Below are positions 413 through 22,339 of a stretch of 34,164 bases of DNA, piece after piece. The notes below the pieces were generated by a model. It was given only the letters and a program-made list of their open reading frames with translations. It ran no database searches and was not told the origin of the DNA. The first letter of the stretch is position 1. Every line of letters begins with the position of its first letter. This DNA comes from Aromatoleum toluolicum. GTDB lineage: Bacteria > Pseudomonadota > Gammaproteobacteria > Burkholderiales > Rhodocyclaceae. The DNA lies in NCBI RefSeq assembly GCF_012911005.2, contig NZ_WTVS01000058.1, positions 1-34,164 on the forward strand, read 5' to 3'. The position numbers and the translations under genes were made by a program.

Positions 413-1153
413 TCAACGGGACATGTCGCGCAGCTGCTTTGTCGCAGTGATGTTCGCCGCAGCGATAAAGTGCTGTATTGGCCGGTCGGGAGCCCATGAA
501 TCGATGACGGAACGGCCGTGTTGTCCGATGGCAATTTCCACGGACGTGAAGCCGGTTTCGCGAAGCATCGCGGAGAGCCCGTCCAATCCGGTCGCGCCGG
601 CAATGCAGCCGGTGTGAAGCGCGATGTCGTCCTGAAGTTCGAGGGGTAGTGGCGCCAGCGCGACGATGTCTGCGACGGCAAGACGTCCTCCGGGCTTGAG
701 CACCCTGCGGGCTTCGGCGAAAACGCGTTGCTTGTCCGCGCAGAGATTGATGACGCAGTTCGACATCACGACATCGAAGCTGGCATCGGGAAAGGGGAGG
801 GATTCGATCTCCGCCTGGACGAAGCTCACGATCGGGACATCCGCATCGCGCGCGTGCCGGCGGGCCAGTCGGACCATCTCGGGCGTCATGTCGACGCCAA
901 CCACGCGCCCGCGGCGGCCGACCTCGACGGCCGCGGCGAGGCAATCGAAGCCGGCGCCGGACCCCAGGTCGAGGACCCATTCGCCCGGCGCAAGGCCGGC
1001 AAGGACGGTGGGACTGCCGCAGCCAAGGCCGCTGTGCGGGGTGCAGGTCAATGGTCTCTTGCCGCTGACCACGGCGGCGGCCCGAGCCGCGGCGTCCGCG
1101 TAGGCCTGGCGCACCCGCGGGCGCAAGGCGTCGGTCGGACGATCTGCGCTCAC
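413..1153 (-). CDS. ArsM-like SAM-dependent methyltransferase
   Basis: A class I methyltransferase of 246 residues. The SAM-binding motif LDLGSGAGFDC is at about residues 61-71, followed by GVDMTPEM, SNCVINLC (131-138), the post-motif RVLKPGGRL, and TGCIAGA (181-187). Cysteines 45, 71, 133 and 183 lie where arsenite methyltransferases carry their metal-binding cysteines, and the overall sequence pattern is that of ArsM. The GTG start at 1153 overlaps the stop codon of the radical SAM gene (GTGA), implying translational coupling. No arsR, arsB or arsC is nearby, so arsenic is not assured as substrate. The coupling suggests it works with the radical SAM enzyme on a common product. Family call firm; substrate open. 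Confidence 0.85.
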   Translation of the reverse strand: MSADRPTDALRPRVRQAYADAAARAAAVVSGKRPLTCTPHSGLGCGSPTVLAGLAPGEWVLDLGSGAGFDCLAAAVEVGRRGRVVGVDMTPEMVRLARRHARDADVPIVSFVQAEIESLPFPDASFDVVMSNCVINLCADKQRVFAEARRVLKPGGRLAVADIVALAPLPLELQDDIALHTGCIAGATGLDGLSAMLRETGFTSVEIAIGQHGRSVIDSWAPDRPIQHFIAAANITATKQLRDMSR

Positions 1154-2571
1154 GGGCGCCCAGCGCAGTCGGCCGGCTGGCCTTCCATGCGCCGATATTT
1201 CATGTTGTACAGGCAGAAGGGCATGAGCTTGCCGTCTGCGGTGAGCTTGTGCACACAGCAGCGGCGCGCGCGCTCCTGGTCGAAGCAGTACGCGTCCATC
1301 ATGCCGTGAAAACCCACTGCGAAGAAGTCGGCGCCCTCGAGCGCGTCGGCGAGTTGCTGGCGGACGTCGCCGCTGCCGTCGCCACACCCGCAGCCGGCGC
1401 TATCGCAACCGAGTTGTCGCAGCAGGGTGTCCCAGTCGCTGAAATCCGCCACGTGCTGGCGCAGGCGATCGTCGCCGACCAGTCGGCTGAGCGGAAGCAA
1501 CTCGCCATTCCGGTCCACGACGATGTAGGCGAGCAAGCCGCAGCGCGGGTCGGGACAGGACATCGGCAGCAGGTCGCCGGCGCGCAAGCGGCCCTCGCTC
1601 TGCGTTTCGATCGCATGCAGGAAATGGGTGGCCGTGAAACGCCGGTGGCTCTGCGCGAGTTCGCGCGGATAGCGGCCGGATAGCACCACCGACTGGAAAT
1701 TGATGCCGGTAAGGCGCCGTTCGGCGGCGAAGCGGATCAGGGGCCACAGTGCCTGTTCGTTGACGCCGGGAACCACGGTCACTGCGAGCACCACTTGCAG
1801 GCCTGCGGTGCGGCAGTGCTCGATGGCCTGCAGCTTTTCGGCGCGCAGGTCGCGACCGCGGATGAATTCGTTCTGGACGGCCTCGAGTCCGTCCATTTGC
1901 AGGTAGACGCCGGTGAGTCCGGCGGCGCGCAATTCGACGGCCAGGTCAGGATTGCTTGCGAGCACCAGCCCGTTGGTGTCGATTTCCATCTTCGTGAAAC
2001 CCAGGGCGCGGGCCCCACGGACGATTTCCACGAGATCGGGATGGACCGTCGGTTCTCCGCCGGCAAACTGCAACGGTACCGGCTGGCCTTCGGTTTCGAG
2101 CAGGCTCCGCAGCGCGCCGAGGACTTGCTCGCGGCTCAGTTCGCTTCCCTTGGCCTTGGCATCGGCCAGGCATACAGGGCAGGGGAGGTTGCAGCGCTGC
2201 GTGATCTCGACGATCGCCAGGCAGGTGTGCTGGTCGTGCGCGGGACACAGGCCGCAATCGTCGGGGCAGCCCTTCGCTTCGGGCATGCTCACGCGTGCGG
2301 GGCGTTTGACGAAACGTGGCGAACGGCGCATGCGTTCGTAGCTGGCGATGTCGGTCGCGATGAGGCTCTCGAACGCGCCGTGCTCGGGGCAGGTCTTGCG
2401 CATGACGACGCCGGCCGGGCTCGATGACACCCTGCCCGGGATGCTCTTCAGACATTCCGGGCACATGCTCATGACGTCGTGGCCGAAGCGCAGCCCGCCG
2501 CTGATGTCGATGCGGGTGCTTGCGCCTGGCGAGGCCGGGGCCGACGGAGGCAGGCAGGACTGGTCGTTCAT
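1150..2571 (-). CDS. cysteine-rich radical SAM enzyme (Tes/MJ0619-like architecture)
   Basis: A 473-residue radical SAM protein. The CNLPCPVC motif gives the SAM-cluster cysteines 127, 131 and 134, and FAGGEPT follows as the SAM-contacting GGE region. An unusual cysteine-rich N-terminus precedes the barrel: CPEC (37-40), CPEH (61-64), then CPDDCGLC (102-109) and HTCLAI. The C-terminus carries CPDPRCG, a CDSAGCGCG run and a YCFDQERARRCC...PFCLYN tail, which predict auxiliary Fe-S or Zn sites. This layout resembles the family that includes tetraether lipid synthase and the pterin methylase MJ0619 (from memory, not from an alignment). The ATG at 2571 overlaps the upstream stop as ATGA, and the gene is likewise coupled to the methyltransferase downstream. 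Substrate unknown; it may form C-C bonds or methylate an unactivated carbon. Confidence 0.85.
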   Translation of the reverse strand: MNDQSCLPPSAPASPGASTRIDISGGLRFGHDVMSMCPECLKSIPGRVSSSPAGVVMRKTCPEHGAFESLIATDIASYERMRRSPRFVKRPARVSMPEAKGCPDDCGLCPAHDQHTCLAIVEITQRCNLPCPVCLADAKAKGSELSREQVLGALRSLLETEGQPVPLQFAGGEPTVHPDLVEIVRGARALGFTKMEIDTNGLVLASNPDLAVELRAAGLTGVYLQMDGLEAVQNEFIRGRDLRAEKLQAIEHCRTAGLQVVLAVTVVPGVNEQALWPLIRFAAERRLTGINFQSVVLSGRYPRELAQSHRRFTATHFLHAIETQSEGRLRAGDLLPMSCPDPRCGLLAYIVVDRNGELLPLSRLVGDDRLRQHVADFSDWDTLLRQLGCDSAGCGCGDGSGDVRQQLADALEGADFFAVGFHGMMDAYCFDQERARRCCVHKLTADGKLMPFCLYNMKYRRMEGQPADCAGRP

Positions 2572-2834
2572 TCGAGTTCGACCATGATGCAAGCGAAGAC
2601 CAGATTGCGCTTGAAGCCAGGAAGGTCGGACGTGGTGAGCGTGAAGCTGCGCGTCGGCCAGTCCGGCGGTCCGATTTCATCGTTCACACCAAGGATGTCC
2701 GTGATGTCCTCCTCGACCGTCTCGAGGAACTCCGCCTCGGACGCCATTTCGCTCACGAAAACGACACGGTAGCCTTGGTCCGCCAATGCCTCGATTTTCA
2801 CTTTCTTCCACGGTTTGGAGGGCAGTGCAAGCAT
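2568..2834 (-). CDS. conserved-looking 88-residue protein of unknown function
   Basis: A short acidic cytoplasmic protein starting MLALPSKPWKK. It has a strong Shine-Dalgarno (TAAGGAGG, complement of 2843-2850) about 8 bases before the ATG. It has no cysteines in motif arrangement apart from one near the end, and no membrane segment. Its stop overlaps the radical SAM start (ATGA), so it is made together with that enzyme. Small proteins coupled to radical SAM genes can be peptide substrates or chaperone-like partners; nothing in the sequence distinguishes these. Not recognised. Confidence 0.7.
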   Translation of the reverse strand: MLALPSKPWKKVKIEALADQGYRVVFVSEMASEAEFLETVEEDITDILGVNDEIGPPDWPTRSFTLTTSDLPGFKRNLVFACIMVELE

Positions 2835-2902
2835 GGTTGCGGCGCCTCCTTACACGCGTCGAAGTCGATCTGGATTGCGCATCTGAACCCCCTCGGCGTT
2901 CG

Positions 2903-3379
2903 TCAGGTTCCTTCCTTGGCCAGCAACGTGGCGGCGATCTCCGCCGCTCGGGAAGTGTAACGCGCACAGCGACGGTGCAATCGGCGATCGCGGAAAACGG
3001 CCTGGCCTTCGGGGGTGCCGATATCGCAACCGAGCAGTTGGTCGCAATTGCGTCCGCCGAACTCCGCTTCGAACGCGCGGACAAGCTCCCGGGTTGCCGA
3101 ATAGGCGGCATCAGCGGTTTGTTCCGCGTTGCTGCGACCCAGCGACAGACCGAGGCCCATGATGGCACCGGTGAGGGCCCCGCAAGGCCCGCAGGTGCGA
3201 GACATGCCGCCGCAGAAGGCCGTCGCCATCTTCGGGATCAGCTCGGAATCGATGCCTTGGGCCTTGGCCAGCGCGGTCAGCACCGCTTCGGCACAATACA
3301 GTCCCGACGCCGAAGCTTCCTCGGCCAGACGGCGGACGTCGTCGGCCGACAGCGGTGCCTTCGATGCGTCGGTGTTCAT
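2903..3379 (-). CDS. C_GCAxxG_C_C family redox-active protein
   Basis: A 158-residue protein with the family signature: LYCAEAVL near residue 28, then FCGGMSRTCGPCGALTGAIM around 55-75, and later cysteines in NCDQLLGC and RRC. The family is thought to bind a metal or Fe-S centre or act as a cysteine redox protein, and often sits beside oxidoreductases of anaerobes. The start is preceded by GAGGAG. It lies 24 bp after the SDR gene and about 70 bp before the 88-residue gene, in one run of same-strand genes. A role as an electron carrier or maturation factor for the neighbouring radical SAM enzyme is inference. Confidence 0.85.
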   Translation of the reverse strand: MNTDASKAPLSADDVRRLAEEASASGLYCAEAVLTALAKAQGIDSELIPKMATAFCGGMSRTCGPCGALTGAIMGLGLSLGRSNAEQTADAAYSATRELVRAFEAEFGGRNCDQLLGCDIGTPEGQAVFRDRRLHRRCARYTSRAAEIAATLLAKEGT

Positions 3380-10169: not shown

Positions 10170-10388
10170 CTATGCGTGAGCCCGGATTTCCCGATGGGCC
10201 GGATCGGGGAAAATACAGTCCGAAAGGCAAACCTTCACGCATTGCGACTCCTCGAAATGTCCGATGCACTCGGTGCATCTGGCGGGATCGATCACGAAGA
10301 TGTCTTCGCCTGGAGCGATTGCCTCGTTCGGGCATTCCATTTCGCACATGCCGCAATTGATGCAGTCAGAATTGATCAGTAGTGCCAT
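10170..10388 (-). CDS. 2[4Fe-4S] ferredoxin, Alvin type
   Basis: A 72-residue low-potential ferredoxin. Cluster one: Cys9, 12, 15, 19 (CINCGMCEMEC). Cluster two: Cys38, 41, 50, 54 with the 8-residue insertion C-x2-C-x8-C-x3-C that defines the Allochromatium vinosum type. An extra Cys58 sits in the tail. Ferredoxins of this type donate electrons to benzoyl-CoA reductase in Thauera and Azoarcus. The start at 10388 has GAGGAGGA upstream, ruling out the longer in-frame extension. The reductase operon about 1.5 kb away shares a promoter element with this gene, so it is the likely electron donor. Confidence 0.93.
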   Translation of the reverse strand: MALLINSDCINCGMCEMECPNEAIAPGEDIFVIDPARCTECIGHFEESQCVKVCLSDCIFPDPAHREIRAHA

Positions 10389-10701: not shown

Positions 10702-11727
10702 TTAGATCGCTTCAGGTCCGTCGTTCAGGTGCGTCTGGCGCCACGTCGTGGCCGTGCAGCCGAAGCGGCTGGAAAACCATCTCGAGAACGCCGACGGCTC
10801 CGAGAATCCCAGCAACTCCGCAAGGTCCTTGAGGGGGCGCTGGGAGTTACTCAAGTACTTGACGGCCAGTTCGCGCCGCGCACCATCGAGAATTTCCGAA
10901 AAGGTTTGTCCGCTGCGTTGCAGGTGTCGATGCAGCGTGCGCCGGTCGAGACCGAGGTGTTGGGAGACCACGTCGACCGAACACCGGCCCGTCGGCAGAA
11001 GCAGCCAGACGAGCTGGCGCACGTTCTCGGCAGGGGATTGAGCCGGTTCCGTGTTGATGACCTCGAGCAGCTTCTGCATGTAGCGCGCGGTTTCGGGATC
11101 GTAGGTCGGCAGCGGGTCATCGAGAATCGCGGCACGGCAGATGATTCCGTCGATGTTGCTGTTGAACTGCAGGCGCGTATCGAACACGCGCTGGTGTACG
11201 CGCAGGTCGCTCGGGGCCGAGTGGCGGAAACACACGGCGGTCGGATGCCATTCGTTGCCCAGCAACACGCGGAGCGTTCGGTACAGCACACCGAGTGACA
11301 GCTCGGTTGCCTGGCGAATCGGTTCCGGTCGATCGGGCATCAGTTCTTCACGGATGATCAGGACGCCGTCGGCCTCCTCGAACAGGAACATTGCCGCCTC
11401 GGCCTGCAGGTAGCTGTAGTTGCGTATTGCCTCGAGCGCCTTGCGCATCGTGGGCTGGCTCTTCAGGACAATGCCCAACGGTCCGAGATTCGAGAGTTGG
11501 CGCCCCTCTGCCAGCCGCAGGCCGAAGTTCTCCACCCCTGCCGCCCTGGCCGAGTTTTCCAGCAACTGCGCATAGGCAGAGAACGGGATCTTCGTGTCGG
11601 GGTTCGACAGGCATGCGGGGCTGATATTGACGCGCCGCAGTTCTTCCATTGGGGAAATATTCAACGCCTGCGCGAGTTCGACGTAATTGGTCAGGCCCGC
11701 GCTGCGGTGAAGTTTTTTTATTGCCAT
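10702..11727 (-). CDS. AraC-family transcriptional regulator
   Basis: A 341-residue regulator. The N-terminal two thirds match the arabinose-binding-like domain of the OruR/ArgR-type AraC group (segments FSAYAQLLENSARAAG, FGLRLAEG, LGPLGIVLKSQPTMRKALEAI). The C-terminal AraC DNA-binding domain (about 240-335) has two helix-turn-helix units, CSVDVVSQHLGLDRRTLHRHLQRSG and KDLAELLGFSEPSAFSRWFSSRFG. It is transcribed divergently from the reductase operon and lies between that operon and the ferredoxin, whose promoters share an element. It is therefore the obvious candidate for their activator, with an aromatic or cyclic acid or CoA ester as possible inducer. Confidence 0.92.
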   Translation of the reverse strand: MAIKKLHRSAGLTNYVELAQALNISPMEELRRVNISPACLSNPDTKIPFSAYAQLLENSARAAGVENFGLRLAEGRQLSNLGPLGIVLKSQPTMRKALEAIRNYSYLQAEAAMFLFEEADGVLIIREELMPDRPEPIRQATELSLGVLYRTLRVLLGNEWHPTAVCFRHSAPSDLRVHQRVFDTRLQFNSNIDGIICRAAILDDPLPTYDPETARYMQKLLEVINTEPAQSPAENVRQLVWLLLPTGRCSVDVVSQHLGLDRRTLHRHLQRSGQTFSEILDGARRELAVKYLSNSQRPLKDLAELLGFSEPSAFSRWFSSRFGCTATTWRQTHLNDGPEAI

Positions 11728-11816: not shown

Positions 11817-11883
11817 GATCCGATTGACCGTCCTTAATGTGGCAGCGCAGATCAAATCAAAATTTCAATTGGAGGAGCCAGCG

Positions 11884-12783
11884 ATGAGTGAGAGCAGTTT
11901 CAAGATCGCCGAGGTGATTGATCCGAGGAAGATACCCGAGTTGCAGCCGGTGACCACTATCGGCATCGACATCGGGTCTCGGCAATCGAAGGCGGTGATG
12001 GTCAGTGGCGACCATATCCACACCGTAATTACCGCCAGCGGTGTCCATCCGGCCGAAACGGCTACGCGGCTGGTCAACAAGTTGCTGAAAGTGTCGGGCC
12101 GCCAGCGCAGCGACATCGCCATGATCGCGGGCACGGGTTACGGCCGCATCGCCCTGCAGTTCGAGGACATCCGTGCCGAGGTGATCACCGAGATCACTTG
12201 CCACGCAATGGGGGCCCACTTCCTCAACGCCAGTACCCGCACCATCATCGACATCGGCGGTCAGGACTGCAAGGCCATCAAGCTCGATACCCGCAACGGG
12301 CGCGTCACCGAGTTTGCGATGAACGACAAGTGCGCTGCCGGTTCAGGTCGCTTCCTCGAAAAAACCGCCGAGATGCTGGGCTACTCCCTGGAAGAGCTGG
12401 GCAGCCGCGCCATGGCGTCGACGAAGGAACTGCAGATGAGCAGTCAGTGCGTCGTGTTCGCCGAGTCCGAGATCGTCTCCCTCAAGGCCAAGAACGAAAC
12501 CGGCGAGGACATCGCAGCCGGCGTCCATTTCGCCATTGCCCGGCGCGTCTGCAACCTGGTTAACCGTATCGGTCTGGATCCCGAGCTGGCCTTCTCCGGC
12601 GGGGTGTCGAACAACATTGGCGTCAAGTACGCGCTGGAAAGCCTGCTCAAGCGCCCCTTCGTCACGCCGCGGCTTAACGCGGTGTTCGCCGGGTGTCTCG
12701 GGGCCGCCCTCATCGCCCAGCAAAAGGTGTGCGGCACGGCCGACTTCGATACGACCCCTGAGCAGGTAGAGGTGGAGGCATGA
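11884..12783 (+). CDS. BcrAD/BadF-type ATPase (activase) subunit of an ATP-dependent reductase
   Basis: A 299-residue ASKHA-fold ATPase. Phosphate-binding signatures: GIDIGSRQSKAV (27-38) and IIDIGGQDCKAI (121-132); FSGGVSNN (237-244) closes the nucleotide site. Cys150 (NDKCAAGSGRF) and Cys189 (SSQCVVFAE) are 39 residues apart, as in dehydratase activators, and should ligate the [4Fe-4S] cluster bridging two ATPase subunits. ATP hydrolysis here drives an electron to very low potential. The ATG at 11884 follows GGAGGAG; an upstream in-frame ATG at 11824 lacks a ribosome site. The stop overlaps the next gene (ATGA). It most resembles the small ATPase (BcrD-like) member of a BCR-type pair. Confidence 0.93.
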   Translation: MSESSFKIAEVIDPRKIPELQPVTTIGIDIGSRQSKAVMVSGDHIHTVITASGVHPAETATRLVNKLLKVSGRQRSDIAMIAGTGYGRIALQFEDIRAEVITEITCHAMGAHFLNASTRTIIDIGGQDCKAIKLDTRNGRVTEFAMNDKCAAGSGRFLEKTAEMLGYSLEELGSRAMASTKELQMSSQCVVFAESEIVSLKAKNETGEDIAAGVHFAIARRVCNLVNRIGLDPELAFSGGVSNNIGVKYALESLLKRPFVTPRLNAVFAGCLGAALIAQQKVCGTADFDTTPEQVEVEA

Positions 12784-14843
12784 ACATGCGACACGAGAAC
12801 ATTCCCGGCGAGCGCAGTCTGGCCTTCGCCGACGTCATCGATCAGGCTCTGGTCCACGAACTGACCGGCGTCACCTCCCTGGGCATCGATATTGGTTCCC
12901 GCAACTCGAAGGCCGTTCTGCTGCACGACGGACGGCTCTATACCGCGCTGCTGCCCACCGGCCTGAACATGCAGGAGACGGCCGGCGAACTGCTCGAGGA
13001 GCTGTACGAGAACGCGAACATCACCCTTGAGGACATCGACTTCATCGTCGGCACGGGTTACGGCCGGGTGTCCCTCAAGTTCACCACGGTGCCGTGCGAG
13101 ATCCTCACCGAGATCTCCTGCCACGCCATGGGCGCGCACTATCTGAATGCCGGCACCCGCACCATCATCGACATCGGCGGCCAGGATGCGAAGGCCATCC
13201 AGGTCGATCCGGCCACCGGCAAGGTCGTGAAGTTCCGCATGAACGACAAGTGTGCCGCCGGTACCGGTCGCTTCCTGGAGAAGGCGGCGACCCTGCTGGA
13301 CCTGACGATGTACGACGTGGGTCCCGAGTCGCTCAAGTACACCAAGGACCTCGAAGTCAGCAGCCAGTGCGTCGTCTTCGCCGAGTCGGAGGTGATTTCG
13401 CACCGCGCCAAGGGTGAAGCCGCAGCCGACATCTCCGCCGGCATCCACATGGCGTCGGCCAAGCGCGTCGTCAGCCTGCTGCGCGCCATTCCGCTGGAAT
13501 CGGACATCGTCTTCACCGGTGGCGTCTCCAACAACGTCGGCATGAAGCACGCGCTGGAGCGCCTGCTCGGCCAGACCATCGTGACGCCGCGCCTGGACAT
13601 GGTGTTTGCGGGCTGCCTGGGGGCTGCCGTCTACGCCCAGCGCCTCGCCATCGAGAAGCGCGGGGCGAAGGTGGCCATGGTGGCCGAGAAGTTCGATGTG
13701 TCGGACCTGTCGCGCCGCATCGAGGATGCGGAGGTTTCGCTGATCGAGCGCCAGGACGTCAAGAAGGTCGGCTACCTCTGCACCTACACGCCGCCCGAGA
13801 TGCTGACCGCCGCCGGTGTCGCCTTCGGGCGGATCGACAAGTGCGGCTCGCCGTCGGTCGTCGCCGAAGGCGAGGTGATCGTCAAGAGTGTGTTCTGCGA
13901 CATGAGCAAGAGCGTGCTCGGCCACTTCCGCACCAAGGATCCGTTCCACGACGCCCTCGACCAGGTGGTCACCTTCTATACCTGCGACACGATGCGCGCG
14001 ACCTCCAACGCCATCAACCACTACTTCAAGCCGTCCTACGGCTACGTGGTGCCGCGGACGGGTGACAAGCCGAGCGCCCGCGACTTCTTCCGCGAGGAAA
14101 TGAAGAACTTCGGCAAGGACCTGGAGAAGCTGACCGGCAAGCCCATCGACGAAGGCAAGCTGCGCGAGTCGATCCAGCTGCACAAGAAGCTGCGCCAGAC
14201 CATCCACAAGATCTCCGACCTGCGCAAGCGCAACCGTCCGCCGCTGTCGGGCAGCGACTTCCTGGAGATCACTCGCGCCTACCGCAGCATCCCTGCGGAA
14301 GAGCAGCTGCCGATCCTCGAGGACCTGTACGAGCGCCTCGCTGCGGTGCCGGACGACGACACGCCGCGTCTGCGCGTGATGATCTGCGGCGGCATCATGG
14401 CCGATGGCGACCGGCGCCTGATGGATCTGCTGGAGAAGGACATCGGCGTCAACGTGGTGGTCGAGGATCACTGCACCGGACTCTCGCCCTTCTACTACGA
14501 GACGCAGGAAACCGACGACCCGTACCGCGACCTCGCCAACGCCTACCTGGACCAGGCGCCGTGTGCCCGCCAGGCGCCCCTGAGCAGGCGCATCGACTTC
14601 GCCGGCAACCTGGCCCAGGAATACGGCGTCGATGCAGTCATCTACTACACCCTCAAGTTCTGCCCGTCCTTCTCGCAGACCAAGGGCCTCTTCATGCGGA
14701 GGTTCCACGAGCTGGGATTGCCCGCGCTGGAACTGGATACCGACTATTCGCAAGGTGACACCGGCCAGATCAAGACCCGCCTCGAGGCCTTCATCGAAGT
14801 GCTCAAGGAAAGCAAAGGAGAGAAAGAATCATGCACGCAGTAA
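12780..14843 (+). CDS. fusion of BcrA-like ATPase with a 2-hydroxyacyl-CoA dehydratase/BcrC-like subunit
   Basis: A 687-residue two-domain protein. Residues about 30-305 repeat the ATPase of the preceding gene (GIDIGSRNSKAV, IIDIGGQDAKAI, cluster cysteines 158 and 197, again 39 apart, and FTGGVSNN). Residues about 325-680 form a HGD-D domain: YLCTYTPPEML (Cys334), FCDMSKS (Cys373), TCDTMRATSN (Cys402), then ICGGIMADGDRR, VEDHCTG and a terminal KFCPSFSQ. These cysteines are candidate ligands for the active-site cluster. In known class I benzoyl-CoA reductases ATPase and catalytic subunits are separate polypeptides; here one of each is joined. Translation is coupled to the gene before (ATGA), and the end overlaps the next gene by 13 bp. 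Confidence 0.9.
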   Translation: MNMRHENIPGERSLAFADVIDQALVHELTGVTSLGIDIGSRNSKAVLLHDGRLYTALLPTGLNMQETAGELLEELYENANITLEDIDFIVGTGYGRVSLKFTTVPCEILTEISCHAMGAHYLNAGTRTIIDIGGQDAKAIQVDPATGKVVKFRMNDKCAAGTGRFLEKAATLLDLTMYDVGPESLKYTKDLEVSSQCVVFAESEVISHRAKGEAAADISAGIHMASAKRVVSLLRAIPLESDIVFTGGVSNNVGMKHALERLLGQTIVTPRLDMVFAGCLGAAVYAQRLAIEKRGAKVAMVAEKFDVSDLSRRIEDAEVSLIERQDVKKVGYLCTYTPPEMLTAAGVAFGRIDKCGSPSVVAEGEVIVKSVFCDMSKSVLGHFRTKDPFHDALDQVVTFYTCDTMRATSNAINHYFKPSYGYVVPRTGDKPSARDFFREEMKNFGKDLEKLTGKPIDEGKLRESIQLHKKLRQTIHKISDLRKRNRPPLSGSDFLEITRAYRSIPAEEQLPILEDLYERLAAVPDDDTPRLRVMICGGIMADGDRRLMDLLEKDIGVNVVVEDHCTGLSPFYYETQETDDPYRDLANAYLDQAPCARQAPLSRRIDFAGNLAQEYGVDAVIYYTLKFCPSFSQTKGLFMRRFHELGLPALELDTDYSQGDTGQIKTRLEAFIEVLKESKGEKESCTQ

Positions 14844-16063
14844 TGGAACAGGCGCCGATCGGCAACGCAGAGCCGCAAAACCAGATCGAATACATCCAGC
14901 AGAGCCGGGAAGCCCACCACTACTCGCCGGGCATCCAGAAGCTGTACGACATGGCGCTCTCCTACTTTCCGGACGCCGAGCGGGGCAACCAGGAAGGCAA
15001 GCCGGCGGTGTGGTCCACCGGCCTGATGGAAGCGCCGCTGCTGTATGCCTGCGACACGATTCCGATGGCGGTGTATGACCTCGGTCGTCTGGGTTCGGCA
15101 GTGGAGGCTGCGGAGTTGTCGGAAGACATCTTCGACATGCCGAAGGAAACCTGCTCGATGGTTTCGGCGCTGATCGGCGAGTGGTACATGCGCCGCAACA
15201 ACTCGGTCAAGAAGGTGGTGGCCCTGTCCACCGTCTGCGAGCCCCTCAACATGGGCTACGAGATGATCAAGGAGTTCGGCTTCGACATCCACCGCGTCGA
15301 GCAGGTGATCCGTCCCGTGCAGGGCGGCGAGGAGCGGCTGGAGCAGATGGTCAAGTTCCTCGCCAGCGAGATCGAGGACGTGGCGCTCTTCCTCACCGGC
15401 AAGCCGGTGGATGAGAACAAGATGCGCACGGAAATCGCCCGCATGAACCGGCTGATGGCGAAGTTCCGCGAGATTCTCAAGCTGCGCGTGAAGAATCCGA
15501 TGTACATCAAGAGCCTGCCCACGCTGTTCTTGCTGATGGGGTCGGGGCACTACTTCGGCAAGCCGCAGGAGTACGAGGTCCTGCTCGACGAGCTGATCGA
15601 GGAACTGAAGACCGCCGAGTTCGTGCCCTCGCCGATGGGGAAAATCATTCCCCTGACCTGGGTCGGTGCCCGCGGCCTGGAGTTCGGGGTGTACAAGGCC
15701 GTCGATGACCTGGGCGGCGCGCTGCTGAGCTGGTTCACGCCGAACCCCTACGACCGCGTCTGGAACGAAGACATTCCGCCGCTGGAGAGCATGGCGCGTT
15801 TCATTCTCGACTACTTCGTCACCGGCTCGCCGGTGAACCAGATCAAGTTCATCGAACAGATGATCGAGGAGTCGGGCTCCAAGGGGATGCTCTTCTACAC
15901 CTACATCGGCTGCCCGTATGGCGGCATGCACGTCGAGCTGTTCCGCAACCATTTCCACCAGAAGGGCGTGCCGAGTTCGGGCCTGGAAGGCAGCTGGCAG
16001 GTGGGCGCACCGTCCGGACAGCTCATCACCCGCGTGCGCGCCTTCATCGAGATGTTGTCCTGA
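14831..16063 (+). CDS. 2-hydroxyacyl-CoA dehydratase/BcrB-like catalytic subunit
   Basis: A 410-residue HGD-D family protein. Cys74 (YACDTIP), Cys108 (ETCSMVSA) and Cys136 (STVCEPLN) lie at the positions used for the catalytic Fe-S cluster in this family; Cys361 (YIGCPYGG) is further down. With the fusion protein's HGD-D half it completes a two-subunit catalytic core, so the three genes supply all four BCR modules (two ATPase, two catalytic). The ATG lies inside the end of the previous gene, behind an AAAGGAGA site, giving equal expression. Two non-identical ATPases favour a reductase of benzoyl-CoA type over a simple dehydratase, which usually uses one homodimeric activator. Substrate unknown. 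Confidence 0.9.
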   Translation: MHAVMEQAPIGNAEPQNQIEYIQQSREAHHYSPGIQKLYDMALSYFPDAERGNQEGKPAVWSTGLMEAPLLYACDTIPMAVYDLGRLGSAVEAAELSEDIFDMPKETCSMVSALIGEWYMRRNNSVKKVVALSTVCEPLNMGYEMIKEFGFDIHRVEQVIRPVQGGEERLEQMVKFLASEIEDVALFLTGKPVDENKMRTEIARMNRLMAKFREILKLRVKNPMYIKSLPTLFLLMGSGHYFGKPQEYEVLLDELIEELKTAEFVPSPMGKIIPLTWVGARGLEFGVYKAVDDLGGALLSWFTPNPYDRVWNEDIPPLESMARFILDYFVTGSPVNQIKFIEQMIEESGSKGMLFYTYIGCPYGGMHVELFRNHFHQKGVPSSGLEGSWQVGAPSGQLITRVRAFIEMLS

Positions 16064-16177
16064 GTGGCATGAGCCCCTGCGGCTTGCGTTAGGGCATGGA
16101 TCGGGGTTGGACGGCGGTGCCGCTCAATCCCGATCGTGCATGAACAGTTCCATCACATGTTCCAAAGGACGACGGTC

Positions 16178-18319
16178 ATGGAGACAAAAAAAGACATTTA
16201 CTGCTTCGTTTGCCCCAGTCACTGCGCGCTTAAAGCCACTTTCGACGAAAACGGCAAGATGATAAAAGTCGTTGCCGACGCCGGTAGCGGACAGCATGTC
16301 GACATCTGCGACTGCCGGAAAGGGCCTGTCACCATTCCCGAAGCGCACAGCCACGGCAAGCGCCTGCAGTTCCCGATGAAGCGGGCGGGTGAGCGCGGCG
16401 AAAACAAGTGGATCCGGATCACCTGGGACGAGGCGCTCGACACCATCGCCGAGAAGATGACGCACTACCGGGACACCTACGGCCCGGAGAGCATCGCCAT
16501 GGTCCTGGGCGAGCCCAAGAGCATGGACTACGCGTTCGCGCAGCGCTTCGCGACCTTCCTGGAGACCCCGAACGTCATCACCCCGGGCAACTACTGTGGC
16601 GTGCAGACCGGCCACGCCGACCAGTTCTCCATCGGTACGATGCACGTCCTCGGGGATACCGGATACGACCCGAAGTGCATCATCATCTGGGGCTCCAATC
16701 CGCAGAATACCGGCAGCAACTTCCGTTGCTTCACCCAGAAGGATGTGGCGCGGGCGATGAAGAACGGCGCCAAGCTGATCATGATGGAGCCGGGCAAGAA
16801 CCGTTACTGCGAGAAGGCCGATCACTGGCTGCGTCTCAAGCCCGGTTCCGATGGGTCGCTGGCGATGGGCATGGCCAAGGTGATCATCGACGAAGACCTG
16901 TACGACAAGGACTACGTCGCCAACTACACGGTCGGTTTCGAGGAACTGAAGAAGGAGGTCGCGAACTTCACACTCCAGGACGTGGCTGACGAAACCTGGA
17001 TCGACATCGAGACCATCCGCACGGTCGCCCGCACCTATGCCACCAGCAAGCCCGGCCTGATCATGTGGGGTAACGCCCTCGAGAACTCGGTTGCGGCGCT
17101 GCAGATCTGCCGCGCCGTCAGCATGCTGCGCGGCCTGACCGGCAACGTCGGGGTGGAAGGCGGTGAGCTGATCAACATCCCGGCGAAGTTCGGTCGTCCA
17201 GGGCGCTTCTATTTCGACCGCAGCCATCCCCGTCCGACGCAGAAGTCGATCGGCAAGGAATTCCCCATCGCCATGGGCGCGGCCTACGTGCCGACGCAGT
17301 CGCTGGTGCAGACGATCCTTTCGGAGGATCCCTACCCGGTAAAGATGGCGATGTGCCACGTCACCAATCCGCTGCTGACCTATCCGGATTCGGTCGCCAC
17401 CTACGAAGCCTTCATGAAGGTGCCTTTCCTCGTGGTGGCCGAGATCTTCCCGACCTCCACGACGGCGATCGCCGACATCGTGCTGCCGGCGGCATTGCCG
17501 CTGGAACACAACTCGATCGCCTATTGGCCGGCCTGGCTCGGTCACATCCGCGCGATGCCCAAGTGCGTCGAGCCGCCGGGCGAGGCGTGGCCGGATTCGA
17601 GGATGATCAACGAACTGGCCAAGCGCATGGGCATGCGCGAGCACTTCTTCGAGGACTGGGAAGAGTGCCTCGACGTCATGATGGCCGACTCGGGAATGAC
17701 CTACAAGGAATTCTGCGAACCCGACAAGCGCGTCATCCATCCCACCAAGACTTACCTCAAGGACAACCCGGAGCGCTACTTCAAGACGCCGTCGGGCAAG
17801 TTCGAGTTCTATTCGCAGCAGATGGTGCAACTGGGCATCAGCCCCTTGCCGACATTCAAGGAAGTCTCGACGCAGCGTTTCAGCAAGGAGCAGTGGGAGC
17901 GCTATCCGCTGTACCTGACCAACGGCAAGGAAGGGGCTTACTTCTCCTCGGGTTACCGGCACATCGAGGGCATGAAGAAGTACAGCGCCGAGGCGATCTG
18001 CGAGTTGAATCCGCGGACCGCGTCCCGGTACGGGCTCAACGAAGGCGAGATGATCTGGATCGAGTCGCGCAAGGGGCGCATCCAGCAGCGCCTGAAGATC
18101 TCCGAGCACGTCCACCCCAACGTCATCGTGGCTGCTTTCGGCTGGTGGGATACCGAGGCGGAGCACAACGAATACGACTGGCGCAGATACAACATCAACA
18201 TCCTCACTGAGGGCGATGGGGCCAACTGCCCGGCGACCGGTTCGGTGCAGTTGCGCGGCGTTCCCGTTCGCGTCTACGCCGAAAAACAGTCGTGGGGAAA
18301 TGAGCGCGCTGACGCATAA
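16178..18319 (+). CDS. cytoplasmic molybdopterin (Mo/W-bisMGD) oxidoreductase or hydratase
   Basis: A 713-residue DMSO-reductase-superfamily protein. A [4Fe-4S] motif opens it: Cys9, Cys12, Cys16 (CFVCPSHC) and Cys46 in CRKG. Bis-MGD binding segments follow (IIIWGSNPQNTG; MMEPGKNRYCEKADHWLRLKPGSDGSLAMGM; the C-terminal FEFYSQQM and LTNGKEGAYFSSGYRH regions). Cys140 (GNYCGVQTG) sits where the metal ligand is expected. There is no Tat signal and no adjacent iron-sulfur or membrane subunit, unlike thiosulfate, polysulfide or DMSO reductases. A stand-alone soluble enzyme such as acetylene hydratase is a fair comparison. The ATG at 16178 has AAAGGA 8 bases upstream; a GTG 14 codons earlier (16136) is less likely. 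Probably hydrates or oxidises the reductase product; this is inference. Confidence 0.88.
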   Translation: METKKDIYCFVCPSHCALKATFDENGKMIKVVADAGSGQHVDICDCRKGPVTIPEAHSHGKRLQFPMKRAGERGENKWIRITWDEALDTIAEKMTHYRDTYGPESIAMVLGEPKSMDYAFAQRFATFLETPNVITPGNYCGVQTGHADQFSIGTMHVLGDTGYDPKCIIIWGSNPQNTGSNFRCFTQKDVARAMKNGAKLIMMEPGKNRYCEKADHWLRLKPGSDGSLAMGMAKVIIDEDLYDKDYVANYTVGFEELKKEVANFTLQDVADETWIDIETIRTVARTYATSKPGLIMWGNALENSVAALQICRAVSMLRGLTGNVGVEGGELINIPAKFGRPGRFYFDRSHPRPTQKSIGKEFPIAMGAAYVPTQSLVQTILSEDPYPVKMAMCHVTNPLLTYPDSVATYEAFMKVPFLVVAEIFPTSTTAIADIVLPAALPLEHNSIAYWPAWLGHIRAMPKCVEPPGEAWPDSRMINELAKRMGMREHFFEDWEECLDVMMADSGMTYKEFCEPDKRVIHPTKTYLKDNPERYFKTPSGKFEFYSQQMVQLGISPLPTFKEVSTQRFSKEQWERYPLYLTNGKEGAYFSSGYRHIEGMKKYSAEAICELNPRTASRYGLNEGEMIWIESRKGRIQQRLKISEHVHPNVIVAAFGWWDTEAEHNEYDWRRYNINILTEGDGANCPATGSVQLRGVPVRVYAEKQSWGNERADA

Positions 18320-18400
18320 CTTCAAGGCCGCGGCGGCGAGGGAGCAATGAGACCCCGGTCGCCGCGCATTCCGGATCGATCGATTGAAAGAGGGAATCTT

Positions 18401-20521
18401 ATGGATTCACCCGTTGTTACCCTGACCCGAAACGGCGCCATCGCCGTCGTCACTATCGACCGTCCGCCGGTCAACGCGCTCTCTGCCGATGTTCGCCGCG
18501 GCTTGCTCGACGCCTTCGACGAACTCGCCGACGACCCGGGCGTCGCCGGCGTGGTCCTCGCCTGTGCGGGGCGCACCTTCGTCGCCGGGGCGGAAATCTC
18601 CGAATTTGGCACCCCTGCCTTCTCCGAGGCGGACCCGAACGACGTCCATGCCGCCATCGAAAACCTGAATATTCCGGTCGTCTGCGCACTGCACGGCACG
18701 ACGCTCGGCGGCGGCATGGAACTGGCGCTGGCCTGCCATTACCGCATCGCCACGCCGACGGCCAAGCTCGGTTTGCCGGAAGTCACGCTCGGCCTGTTGC
18801 CGGGCGGAGGCGGGACGCAGCGCTTGCCGCGCCTGATCGGTGCGGCCGATGCGCTGGAGATGATGCTTTCCGGCGCTCCGATGTCGGCCCAGACTGCACT
18901 CGAGAAGGACCTCATCGACGTGATCGTCGAAGGCAACCTGCTCGAGGCTGCACAGCGTTTCGTGGGGGAACTGGTCGCCACGCGCGCACCGCTTCGTCTG
19001 GCGAGTGAGGTCGACGTCGATCGCGCCAGCGTCTCGCCGACACTGTTTGCGGAAACGCGGACCTCGCTGGCGAAGAAGGCCCGTGGCGCCATCGCTCCGG
19101 CACGGATCGTGGATTGTGTCGTGGCGGCGGTGACCCGACCCTTCGCCGAAGGACTGAAGTACGAGCGCGACCTGTTCGTCGAATGCATGAACTCCCGGCA
19201 GTCGGCGGCGCTGCGCCACGCGTTCTTCGCCGAGCGCGAAGCGGGCAAACTTCCTGGCAACCTCGCCGGCAACGCCAAGGACATGGACCTGCGCCCGATC
19301 AGGAAGGTCGGCATCGTCGGCGCAGGAACGATGGGCGGCGGCATTGCGATGAACTTCCTCAATGCCGGCATTCCAGTCGTGCTGCTGGAGGTCAAGCAGG
19401 ATGCGCTGGAGCGCGGCCTCGGGCTCATCCGCAAAAACTACGAGGCGACGGCAAGCAAGGGTCGAATGACGCTCGAACAGGTCGCCCAGCGCATGGCCTT
19501 GTGCAGCGGCTCGCTCGAGTATGCCGAACTGCAGGATTGCGATCTCGTGATCGAGGCGGTGTTCGAGAACATGGACATCAAGAAGGCCGTGATGACCCGC
19601 CTGGGTGAAGTGTGCAAACCCGGCGCGATCATCGCCACCAATACCTCGACGCTCGATGTGGACGTGCTGGCCGCTGCGAGCGGCCGCGCGGCCGATGTGG
19701 TCGGCATGCACTTCTTCAGCCCGGCCAACGTGATGCGCCTGCTCGAAGTCGTGCGCGGGCGCGACACCGCGCCCGAGGTACTGGCGACGGTGATGGGCCT
19801 GGCCCGGACCATCAAGAAGGTGGCAGTCGTTTCCGGTGTCTGCTTCGGCTTCATCGGCAACCGCATGCTCGAACCCTACCTGCGCGAATGCGAGTCCCTG
19901 CTGCTCGAAGGTGCGACGCCGACGCAAATCGACCACGCCGTCGAAGCCTTCGGCATGGCGATGGGACCCTGCCGCATGATCGACATGGCGGGCGTCGATG
20001 TCGCCGCCAAGGTGGTGCTCGAACGCAGGAAGGAGGGCGCGCTGCCGGCCGACCCGAGCTATCGCACGGCGTGCCAGATGCTGTTCGAGCTCGGCCGTCA
20101 CGGTCAGAAAACGGCTGCCGGCTACTACCGGTACGAAGGCCGCACGCCGGTCCATGACCCGGAGGTCGACCGGGTCATGGAAGGCCTTGCCGCGCAATAC
20201 GGCATCGCGCGTCGCAGCGACATCAGCGACGAGGAGATCGTCGAGCGCTGCCTGTATCCGCTGATGAACGAAGGGGCAAAGATCCTCGAGGAGGGGATCG
20301 CCTACCGTGCAGGCGATATCGACATCGTGTGGCTCAACGGCTATGGCTTCCCGGCGCTGAAGGGTGGGCCGATGCATGCCGCGAACGTCATCGGTCTGGA
20401 ACAGATCGTGGCGTGCCTCGACCACTATGCCGACAAACGCGGCAACGCATTCGGCTACTGGACGGTGGCCGGGCTGCTCGGCGATCTGGCGGCCGCCGAG
20501 CGAGCGTTCGGTGACGCTTGA
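18401..20521 (+). CDS. bifunctional enoyl-CoA hydratase/3-hydroxyacyl-CoA dehydrogenase
   Basis: A 706-residue FadJ/FadB-like protein. N-terminal crotonase domain (about 1-190) with FVAGAEISEFG and LHGTTLGGGMELALAC as oxyanion-hole segments and PEVTLGLLPGGGGTQRLPR carrying the general-base glutamate. The dehydrogenase NAD-binding domain begins near residue 302 (VGIVGAGTMGGG), followed by VGMHFFSPANVM with the catalytic histidine, FIGNRM, and the C-terminal 3HCDH domain. It hydrates a 2-enoyl-CoA and oxidises the 3-hydroxyacyl-CoA. The start at 18401 follows AAAGAGGGA; a longer reading from 18347 has no support. It lies 81 bp after the Mo/W enzyme. Confidence 0.93.
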   Translation: MDSPVVTLTRNGAIAVVTIDRPPVNALSADVRRGLLDAFDELADDPGVAGVVLACAGRTFVAGAEISEFGTPAFSEADPNDVHAAIENLNIPVVCALHGTTLGGGMELALACHYRIATPTAKLGLPEVTLGLLPGGGGTQRLPRLIGAADALEMMLSGAPMSAQTALEKDLIDVIVEGNLLEAAQRFVGELVATRAPLRLASEVDVDRASVSPTLFAETRTSLAKKARGAIAPARIVDCVVAAVTRPFAEGLKYERDLFVECMNSRQSAALRHAFFAEREAGKLPGNLAGNAKDMDLRPIRKVGIVGAGTMGGGIAMNFLNAGIPVVLLEVKQDALERGLGLIRKNYEATASKGRMTLEQVAQRMALCSGSLEYAELQDCDLVIEAVFENMDIKKAVMTRLGEVCKPGAIIATNTSTLDVDVLAAASGRAADVVGMHFFSPANVMRLLEVVRGRDTAPEVLATVMGLARTIKKVAVVSGVCFGFIGNRMLEPYLRECESLLLEGATPTQIDHAVEAFGMAMGPCRMIDMAGVDVAAKVVLERRKEGALPADPSYRTACQMLFELGRHGQKTAAGYYRYEGRTPVHDPEVDRVMEGLAAQYGIARRSDISDEEIVERCLYPLMNEGAKILEEGIAYRAGDIDIVWLNGYGFPALKGGPMHAANVIGLEQIVACLDHYADKRGNAFGYWTVAGLLGDLAAAERAFGDA

Positions 20522-21154: not shown

Positions 21155-22339
21155 ATGAAAGAAGCAGTTATCGTTTCCACCGCCCGTACCCCGATCGGCC
21201 GGGCATTCCGCGGGGCCTTCAACAACACCAAGTCGCCGACGCTGATGGGGCACGCGCTCAGCCACGCGGTACAGCGCGCCGGCATCGACGCGGGCGAGAT
21301 CGAAGACGTAATCGTCGGTACGGTCCTGTCGGCAGGAACTGCCGGGATGAACATCGCGCGCAATGCGGCGCTTGCCGCGGGGATTCCGGTCACGGCCGGG
21401 GCGCAGACGGTCGATCGTCAATGCTCTTCCGGTTTGATGGCGATCGGCATGGCCGCCAAGCAGATCATCGTCGACGGCATGGAGGTTGTGGCGGCGGGGG
21501 GGCAGGACAATATCTCGGCCGTCCAGGCGGGCTATTTCGAGTGGGCGGCCAGGGAGAAGGATCCGAACGTCGAGAAGTTCGCGCCCCACGCCTACATGCC
21601 GATGTTGCTGACTGCGGAGAACGTCGCGAAGAAATTCGGCATCTCCCGCGAGGCGCAGGACCTGTATGCACTGTCGTCGCAGCAGCGCACCGCCGCCGCA
21701 CAGGAAGCGGGCCGCTTCGACCAGGAAATCGTGCCGCTGACCACCATGATGGCGGTGGTGAACAAGGAGACGAAGGAGGTCTCGTACAAGGAAGTGACGC
21801 TCGCGAGGGACGAGGGCAATCGCGCCGACACCACCCTGGAAGGTCTCGCCAGCCTGAAACCCGTGGTCGAGGGCGGGTGCATCACGGGCGGCAATGCCAG
21901 CCAGCTGTCTGACGGCGCCTCGGCCTGTGTCGTCATGGAGCGCAAGCTCGCCGAACGCCGTGGCCTGACCCCGTTGGGCATCTACCGGGGCATCGCGGTG
22001 GCCGGCAATGCCCCCGAGGAGATGGGCATCGGTCCGATCTACGCCATCCCCAAACTGCTCAAGCAGCACGGTCTGAAAGTGGGCGATATCGGGCTGTGGG
22101 AGCTCAACGAGGCCTTCGCGTGCCAAGCTTTGTATTGCCGGGACCACCTCGACATCGACCCGGCGAAATACAACGTCAACGGTGGCGGGATCTCCATCGG
22201 ACACCCGTACGGGATGACCGGCTCCCGTCTGGTCGGGCATGCGCTGATCGAGGGCAAGCGACGCGGCGTGAAGTACGTCGTCGTCACGATGTGCATCGGC
22301 GGCGGCATGGGGGCTGCGGGTCTGTTCGAGGTCTGCTGA
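21155..22339 (+). CDS. acetyl-CoA C-acyltransferase (thiolase)
   Basis: A classical degradative thiolase of 394 residues. The acyl-accepting cysteine is in DRQCSSGL (about residue 90), NEAFA precedes the active-site loop, [11 protein letters not shown] carries the histidine, and CIGGGMG the second catalytic cysteine. It cleaves a 3-oxoacyl-CoA to acetyl-CoA and a shortened acyl-CoA, finishing the beta-oxidation set with the gene two positions upstream. Unlike the SCP-x type thiolase in the left operon, it belongs to the FadA/PhaA group, so the two operons probably serve different steps or substrates. Last gene of the operon; the next starts 159 bp on. Confidence 0.93.

Follow-up and report, generated by a model that had tools for sequence, protein, structure and literature searches.

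Enzymes able to drive electrons below the range usual in biology are few. A 2025 paper on BzdNO (PMC11971306) names just two proteins as shown to hold a double cubane, the double-cubane cluster protein (DCCP), whose function is unknown, and BzdN of the class I benzoyl-coenzyme A (CoA) reductase (BCR) of Aromatoleum sp. CIB. According to the same paper, BzdN binds its [8Fe-9S] double cubane through Cys36/73/100/263/293/327, and its partner BzdO binds a [4Fe-4S]-OH2 cluster through Cys95/128/380 (PMC11971306). Here we describe a cassette of three genes in a 34,164-nucleotide stretch of Aromatoleum toluolicum DNA (NZ_WTVS01000058.1), analysed at its full length as the window and identical with the entire contig C243 of its genome. 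Judging from its sequence, the cassette probably encodes an ATP-driven iron-sulfur reductase of the superfamily that comprises BCR, the 2-hydroxyacyl-CoA dehydratases (HAD) and DCCP, in a deep lineage of its own. The tests made place it in none of the BCR, HAD and DCCP families, and no description of such a three-gene system was found in the open-licence literature.

A fused ATPase and two unlike HGD-D subunits

The first gene of the cassette (11884..12783, + strand) encodes a free ATPase of the BcrAD_BadFG/acyl-CoA dehydratase activase type, 299 residues long from its ATG; the frame is also open from a TTG at 11824. The second (12780..14843, + strand) encodes a 687-residue fusion in which an ATPase (Pfam BcrAD_BadFG, residues 34-286, 184.7 bits) is followed by an HGD-D electron-relay subunit (Pfam HGD-D, residues 334-675, 289.1 bits). 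The third (14831..16063, + strand) encodes a separate HGD-D subunit of 410 residues, hereafter H2 (Pfam HGD-D, 116.7 bits), which is the predicted substrate-site subunit. The genes overlap by 4 bases (free ATPase and fusion) and 13 bases (fusion and H2) and form one operon. The coordinates and sizes in the original prediction are thus confirmed, as is its placement of the ATPase cluster cysteines 39 residues apart in both proteins. These cysteines are C150/C189 of the free and C158/C197 of the fused ATPase.

The possibility that the fusion is a sequencing or frameshift artefact was rejected, as in each of 14 distinct loci one uninterrupted reading frame encodes it. Because the same three-gene order and the same fusion recur in other genera and in another phylum, and because the ratio of nonsynonymous to synonymous substitution (dN/dS) is 0.075-0.186 in six gene comparisons of the window with two copies from the Aromatoleum group, the cassette is more than a product of chance.

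The fused HGD-D half contains six predicted [8Fe-9S] ligands, C334, C373, C402, C565, C595 and C628, which were assigned by alignment to the BzdN ligands given in PMC11971306 and are invariant in all 13 aligned sequences. Among the 18 alignment rows shown, BzdN, two DCCPs and the three fused rows are the only ones with the full set of six; four of the six remain in HadC, and three in BcrC and MbdN. The six cysteines mark two known proteins, not all BCRs. In H2, C108, C136 and C361 occupy the three core cluster positions and are invariant over 19 rows that include BzdO, MbdO and BcrB-like, HadB-like and DCCP sequences, and a further cysteine, C74, is invariant inside H2's own family. The cluster types of the fused half and of H2 are predictions from these patterns. 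The cassette has the HGD-D fold, the three core cysteines and the BcrAD-type ATPase by which membership of the BCR/HAD/DCCP superfamily was judged.

A six-cysteine subunit with a three-cysteine partner, as in BzdNO, and a YfhL-type ferredoxin encoded nearby make an ATP-dependent low-potential reductase the best reading of the cassette, as had been proposed. It is most likely an ATP-dependent multi-electron reductase that would work like the BZD-type enzyme, and not a dehydratase. The YfhL-type ferredoxin would supply single electrons. The free and the fused ATPase, which both have conserved cysteines, would dimerise with a [4Fe-4S] cluster between them, and ATP hydrolysis would push an electron into the putative [8Fe-9S] double cubane of the fused HGD-D half, where electrons would be stored. 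From there, following the BzdN/BzdO pattern, electrons would pass to a three-cysteine [4Fe-4S] cluster in H2, the probable site of substrate reduction. The fusion would hold the ATPase permanently on the relay, an arrangement that would suit an enzyme spending ATP on each electron and not a dehydratase that needs one starter electron.

Descent of the domains and other fusions

The HGD-D tree was built from 58 rows and repeated on an L-INS-i alignment of 53 rows, without L019_BcrB (a masked stretch) and the long-branched rows L056_RhB, L059_Y, L063_X and L057_X. The H2 of loci L015 (contig end) and L011 was left out of the tree and alignment, the free-ATPase set is without L012 (frame broken in a metagenome-assembled genome, MAG) and L011 (contig begins in the fusion), and L086 and L087 are absent from the trees. 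The 13 fused HGD-D halves form one clade (support 100/100) that lies outside the BzdN/BcrC/MbdN/HadC clade (97/95 in both HGD-D trees). Likewise, the 11 H2 sequences group together (100/100), and the BzdO/BcrB/MbdO/HadB clade excludes them (99/95 in the 58-row tree and 98/89 in the 53-row tree). Within those two reference clades the BCR and HAD rows are intermixed. As far as the references go, neither HGD-D domain is by descent a subunit of a BCR or a dehydratase. The H2 stem is very long, at ~2.4 changes per column, and draws a warning that long branches meet; the branching order of the fused half and DCCP is not settled in the 53-row tree.

In the ATPase tree (46 rows), the 13 fused and 11 free ATPases share one clade (99/100) to which none of the 22 reference ATPases belongs; the cassette pair thus arose by a duplication of its own and does not correspond to BcrA/BcrD or BzdP/BzdQ. 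Because that duplication took place inside the cassette lineage, the presence of two different ATPases is no evidence of BCR descent. The original prediction had called the enzyme one of BCR type, which does not hold as kinship: both HGD-D domains fall outside the BCR/HAD clades, and the ATPase pair arose by a separate duplication. Nor are both HGD-D domains placed firmly inside the dehydratases in either HGD-D tree. As statements of kinship, a plain BCR isoenzyme and a plain dehydratase are therefore both rejected by the trees, with which the model cut-offs agree, though weakly.

Among the NCBIfam models, no BCR, HAD or DCCP equivalog reaches its cut-off on the cassette, and the general activase model alone does. 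The bzdQ model scores 170.5 and 200.5 bits (cut-off 380.2), bzdN 106.8 bits (453.8), BcrC 67.8 bits (421.15) and BcrB 22.2 bits (486.55); since the MbdO of the same genome also misses the BcrB cut-off, with 221.8 bits, the BCR cut-off test is weak. As to the references themselves, the BzdN/BzdO rows and all four of the DCCP type score above the cut-offs of their models, MbdO is labelled from a full-length match to PDB 9g87_A (1002 bits) and MbdN as MbdO's neighbour. The BcrB/BcrC rows carry the name of their best model match, below cut-off (L019_BcrB was labelled without a model scan), and the HadB/HadC rows are best matches of 414-537 bits, also below cut-off; those of L058 match HadBC of PDB 3o3m best (431 and 391 bits). 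Two of the reference ATPases, those of L018, were scanned, and the others were named after their neighbours.

ATPase and HGD-D domains are joined elsewhere as well. In a clostridial locus (L090, 225-3939), a 556-residue fusion with the HGD-D domain first and the ATPase second has all six double-cubane cysteines, and is accompanied by a separate 418-residue HGD-D partner and an adjoining acyl-ACP (acyl carrier protein) thioesterase gene. By these alignments, the ATPase is tethered to a six-cysteine subunit in two opposite domain orders, and the reverse order in another clostridial system suggests that the joining has been favoured more than once. Genome G1260 (L086, 2242-5178) encodes a single-chain ATPase-HGD-D-HGD-D protein of 978 residues, with an importer gene before it and metK after it; its frame is without the end of the first HGD-D domain, where the sixth ligand would lie, and the start of the second, and it may be a genuine fusion, a gene in decay or an assembly error. 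At L088, a 1,427-residue ATPase-DUF2229 protein has a weak HGD-D match (20.8 bits, Pfam cut-off 28.4). The subunit architecture had been put forward as new. It does differ from that of class I BCRs in the fusion and in having three polypeptides, but ATPase/HGD-D fusions as such are not unique to it.

Distribution and betaproteobacterial neighbours

A scan of genome contigs with the fusion returned 13 loci. Nine of them have the fusion itself, the best segment being 58-91% identical, and the remaining four are BCR-like sets of several genes. The nine hosts are A. toluclasticum, A. diolicum, three betaproteobacterial MAGs including a Sterolibacterium, Rhodobacter viridis, Ruminiclostridium hungatei, a Clostridiales MAG and a Lachnospiraceae MAG. 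The fusion is also found on plasmid pAZKH of Azoarcus sp. KH32C and in genomes G137, G116 and G1430, which with the window makes 14 distinct loci, ten of them betaproteobacterial, in Betaproteobacteria, Clostridia and Rhodobacter.

Prevalence was counted with H2 as query (E 1e-40) in genome samples that overlap. The cassette's own genus has it in 6 of 17 genomes and its own family in 3 of 150, the genome under study included in each count; among 399 genomes of its order and 398 of its phylum, that genome is the only one. R. hungatei is the single hit among 391 genomes of its class and 11 of its family, as is R. viridis in its family (1 of 295), and the family of the Lachnospiraceae MAG has two in 200, that MAG and G1260. 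This rare and patchy occurrence points to horizontal transfer, although in each of three comparisons the GC content of the cassette is like that of the locus around it. Divergence is mosaic: between the window and G137, H2 is 96% identical in DNA and the free ATPase only 83%, and between the window and A. diolicum eight of the nine other shared proteins are 95-98% identical (FadB 90%) and the three core proteins 85-90%. The cassette has diverged as if exchanged by recombination.

Divergent from the operon lies a gene for an AraC-family regulator (10702..11727, − strand), which is present in nine of the ten betaproteobacterial loci. Behind it, in eight of the ten, is the gene for a YfhL-type two-[4Fe-4S] ferredoxin (10170..10388, − strand; 72 residues from an ATG at 10388; NF033683, 103 bits, cut-off 86); the exceptions are L011, whose contig starts inside the fusion, and L013, which is without the ferredoxin. 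YfhL-type ferredoxins donate electrons to benzoyl-CoA reductase in Thauera, and the one encoded here is likely the electron donor.

Downstream on the + strand are genes for a FadB/FadJ-like enoyl-CoA hydratase/3-hydroxyacyl-CoA dehydrogenase (18347..20521) and a thiolase (21155..22339). Homologues (at least 50% identity) of the window's CoA ligases, acyl-CoA dehydrogenase, FadB or thiolase occur in the fetched flank of eight of the ten betaproteobacterial loci. For the betaproteobacterial copies, the likeliest substrate is a CoA thioester, whether unsaturated, alicyclic or aromatic, of a pathway resembling beta-oxidation, and this is the least certain step of the reading.

Directly after the operon, a molybdopterin (MopB) enzyme of 727 residues (16136..18319, + strand) is encoded in the window, as it is at four of the ten betaproteobacterial loci in all, with a short remnant in G137; we regard it as accessory. 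Its nearest solved structure is acetylene hydratase (284 bits, the next structure 180.7), and both proteins are 727 residues long. We do not claim it as an acetylene hydratase, as a Pro follows its second cluster cysteine, a position at which acetylene hydratase has an Asp with a role in that enzyme. Also near the cassette, at window positions 1150-3379, are genes for a TrsS/Tes-like radical SAM protein (358 bits, cut-off 490), with homologues in L010 and L012, and for a member of the C_GCAxxG_C_C family (70.3 bits, cut-off 47.4), with homologues in L010 and L013. In the Sterolibacterium MAG (L013, 182-2143), the AraC gene is in frame with an acyl-CoA dehydrogenase gene, through a deletion or an assembly join.

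Readings of function and comparison with known systems

Several observations weigh against a BZD-like multi-electron reductase acting on a CoA thioester. MbdN, the relay of a genuine 3-methylbenzoyl-CoA reductase, makes do with three of the six cysteines, so six are not required for ring reduction. The active-site residues point neither way: the alignment places nothing in H2 opposite the catalytic Glu65 of BzdO, yet H2 has an acidic side chain (Asp83 here, Glu in R. viridis) roughly one position off; BzdO His131 is unmatched in H2, but MbdO and BcrB are also without this His, and the alignment of BzdO Trp46 to H2 is ambiguous. In fold likeness, H2 scores higher against the relay side (HadC 38.5, DCCP 36.6, BzdN 36.4) than against the active-site side (HadB 30.7, BzdO 28.8), and it joins the tree on the stem of the active-site side, opposite to that likeness. 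Forcing the fused half and H2 into one clade costs 15.0 log units and is not rejected by the approximately unbiased (AU) test (p-AU 0.112). The structure model of the fused protein is too poor to use (predicted local distance difference test, pLDDT, 63.1; predicted template modelling score, pTM, 0.52), so we can only infer that the ATPase docks on the relay half. Finally, at L014-L017 the open reading frames of at least 100 residues, beyond the core proteins, gave no match at E 1e-8 to 15 window proteins, two CoA ligases among them, and ABC importer genes stand there instead of the window's neighbour genes. As far as the contigs reach, the 14 loci have just the three core genes in common, so the substrate is not readable from any one neighbourhood.

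These importers bear on the foremost alternative, which we consider possible but rather unlikely: a DCCP-like reductase of an imported small molecule that is not a CoA ester, the betaproteobacterial acyl-CoA genes being mere neighbours. An SsuA/NMT1-type importer gene lies beside the operon at three of the four clostridial loci (L014, 232.9 bits, cut-off 163.5; L016, 85.7 bits, and L086, 61 bits, both below cut-off), the contig of the fourth, L015, ending inside the operon. In R. hungatei the operon is preceded by a TetR-like gene and followed by an SsuABC/Sao-like importer; in the Lachnospiraceae MAG an SsuA-like gene lies downstream, and R. viridis has a polar amino acid importer downstream with, beyond it on the other strand, an O-acetylhomoserine sulfhydrylase gene. 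H2 moreover matches no NCBIfam family other than the double-cubane one, which is also the top match of the fusion outside the ATPase models (NF040772, 44.9 and 213.8 bits, respectively; cut-off 350), and DCCP reduces small molecules, according to PMC11971306. However, DCCP is a homodimer of six-cysteine subunits whereas the cassette has one three-cysteine subunit, and in Betaproteobacteria acyl-CoA genes, the ferredoxin and the AraC regulator recur at eight, eight and nine of ten loci, respectively. As a separate observation, the R. hungatei genome (G150) contains 14 HGD-D matches, and contig C6 (partly L089) accounts for ten of these, between 46.5 and 115.3 kb.

We think it unlikely that the cassette is a 2-hydroxyacyl-CoA dehydratase with a tethered activator, in which one ATP-energised electron would start many water eliminations. 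The ATPase family is shared with HAD activators. According to PMC11971306, HADs recycle one activated electron received from a separate activator. The relay half has six double-cubane cysteines and the HadC row four, and both domains lie outside the HadB-like and HadC-like clades by starred branches. On the HadC model the fusion reaches 73.8 bits (cut-off 700), and the HadB model has no match in H2 at E 0.001.

More doubtful still is that the cassette cleaves a carbon-heteroatom bond, such as the C-S bond of an imported organosulfur compound, and so feeds sulfur (methionine) assimilation; it would then match, within the BCR/DCCP family, the nitrogenase-like methylthio-alkane reductase. The hints are the clostridial SsuA/NMT1-type importers, one of them above cut-off, the sulfhydrylase of R. 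viridis, the metK gene beside the G1260 single chain, and genes for YeiH-family putative sulfate exporters near the cassette in L043 (16161-17177, below cut-off) and L041 (36309-37310). Among the window proteins scanned, no sulfur gene was recognised.

The A. toluolicum genome has five pairs of HGD-D matches (ten in all) and seven ATPase domains of the BcrAD type: two bzdNO pairs (C15 and C227), well above the model cut-offs, a 3-methylbenzoyl-CoA reductase set on C256, an unassigned set on C234 and the cassette. Benzoate-type jobs are thus coverable by other genes here; no systematic search for benzoate genes was made in the other host genomes. A redundant or divergent BCR isoenzyme for benzoate or methylbenzoate is very improbable, for although aromatic reductases are common in this genome, the existing sets can do the known jobs and the cassette lies outside the BCR clades.

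Taken as an ATP-dependent multi-electron reductase, the cassette would represent a third lineage with double-cubane ligands, one with a tethered ATPase and an independently evolved ATPase pair. It would offer a compact three-gene model for ATP-driven super-reduction, possibly in a new low-potential reaction.

Set beside the systems already described, the cassette resembles the activase-related proteins of ~1,400 residues at L088 in having an ATPase and an HGD-D-like region in one chain, but those contain two ATPase stretches and DUF2229, and their HGD-D match is below the Pfam cut-off. With the two-gene system of L090 it shares an ATPase joined to a six-cysteine HGD-D domain and a separate HGD-D partner; L090 differs in its reversed domain order, in having one ATPase in the fetched stretch and in its thioesterase neighbour. 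HadBC, the (R)-2-hydroxyisocaproyl-CoA dehydratase, and its activator (PDB 3o3m, 4eht) have the same fold, the core cysteines of both subunits and the same ATPase family, but HadC has four of the six cysteines, the single activator is separate and there is no fusion, and the cassette differs in all three. DCCP and its reductase (PDB 6eno, 7yyl) likewise combine a six-cysteine HGD-D subunit with a BcrAD-type ATPase partner; DCCP is, however, a homodimer from one HGD-D gene with a separate ATPase, whereas the cassette has two unlike HGD-D domains, H2 with three of the six cysteines. BzdNOPQ, the class I BCR of Aromatoleum sp. CIB (PDB 8s02), consists of four free polypeptides where the cassette has three with a fusion, and the cassette's domains fall outside the BzdN and BzdO clades, its ATPase pair being of separate origin. 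Yet the six-cysteine relay, the three-cysteine partner and the two different ATPases of BzdNOPQ all have their like in the cassette, in which the class I trait of two different ATPases together with two different HGD-D subunits is present.

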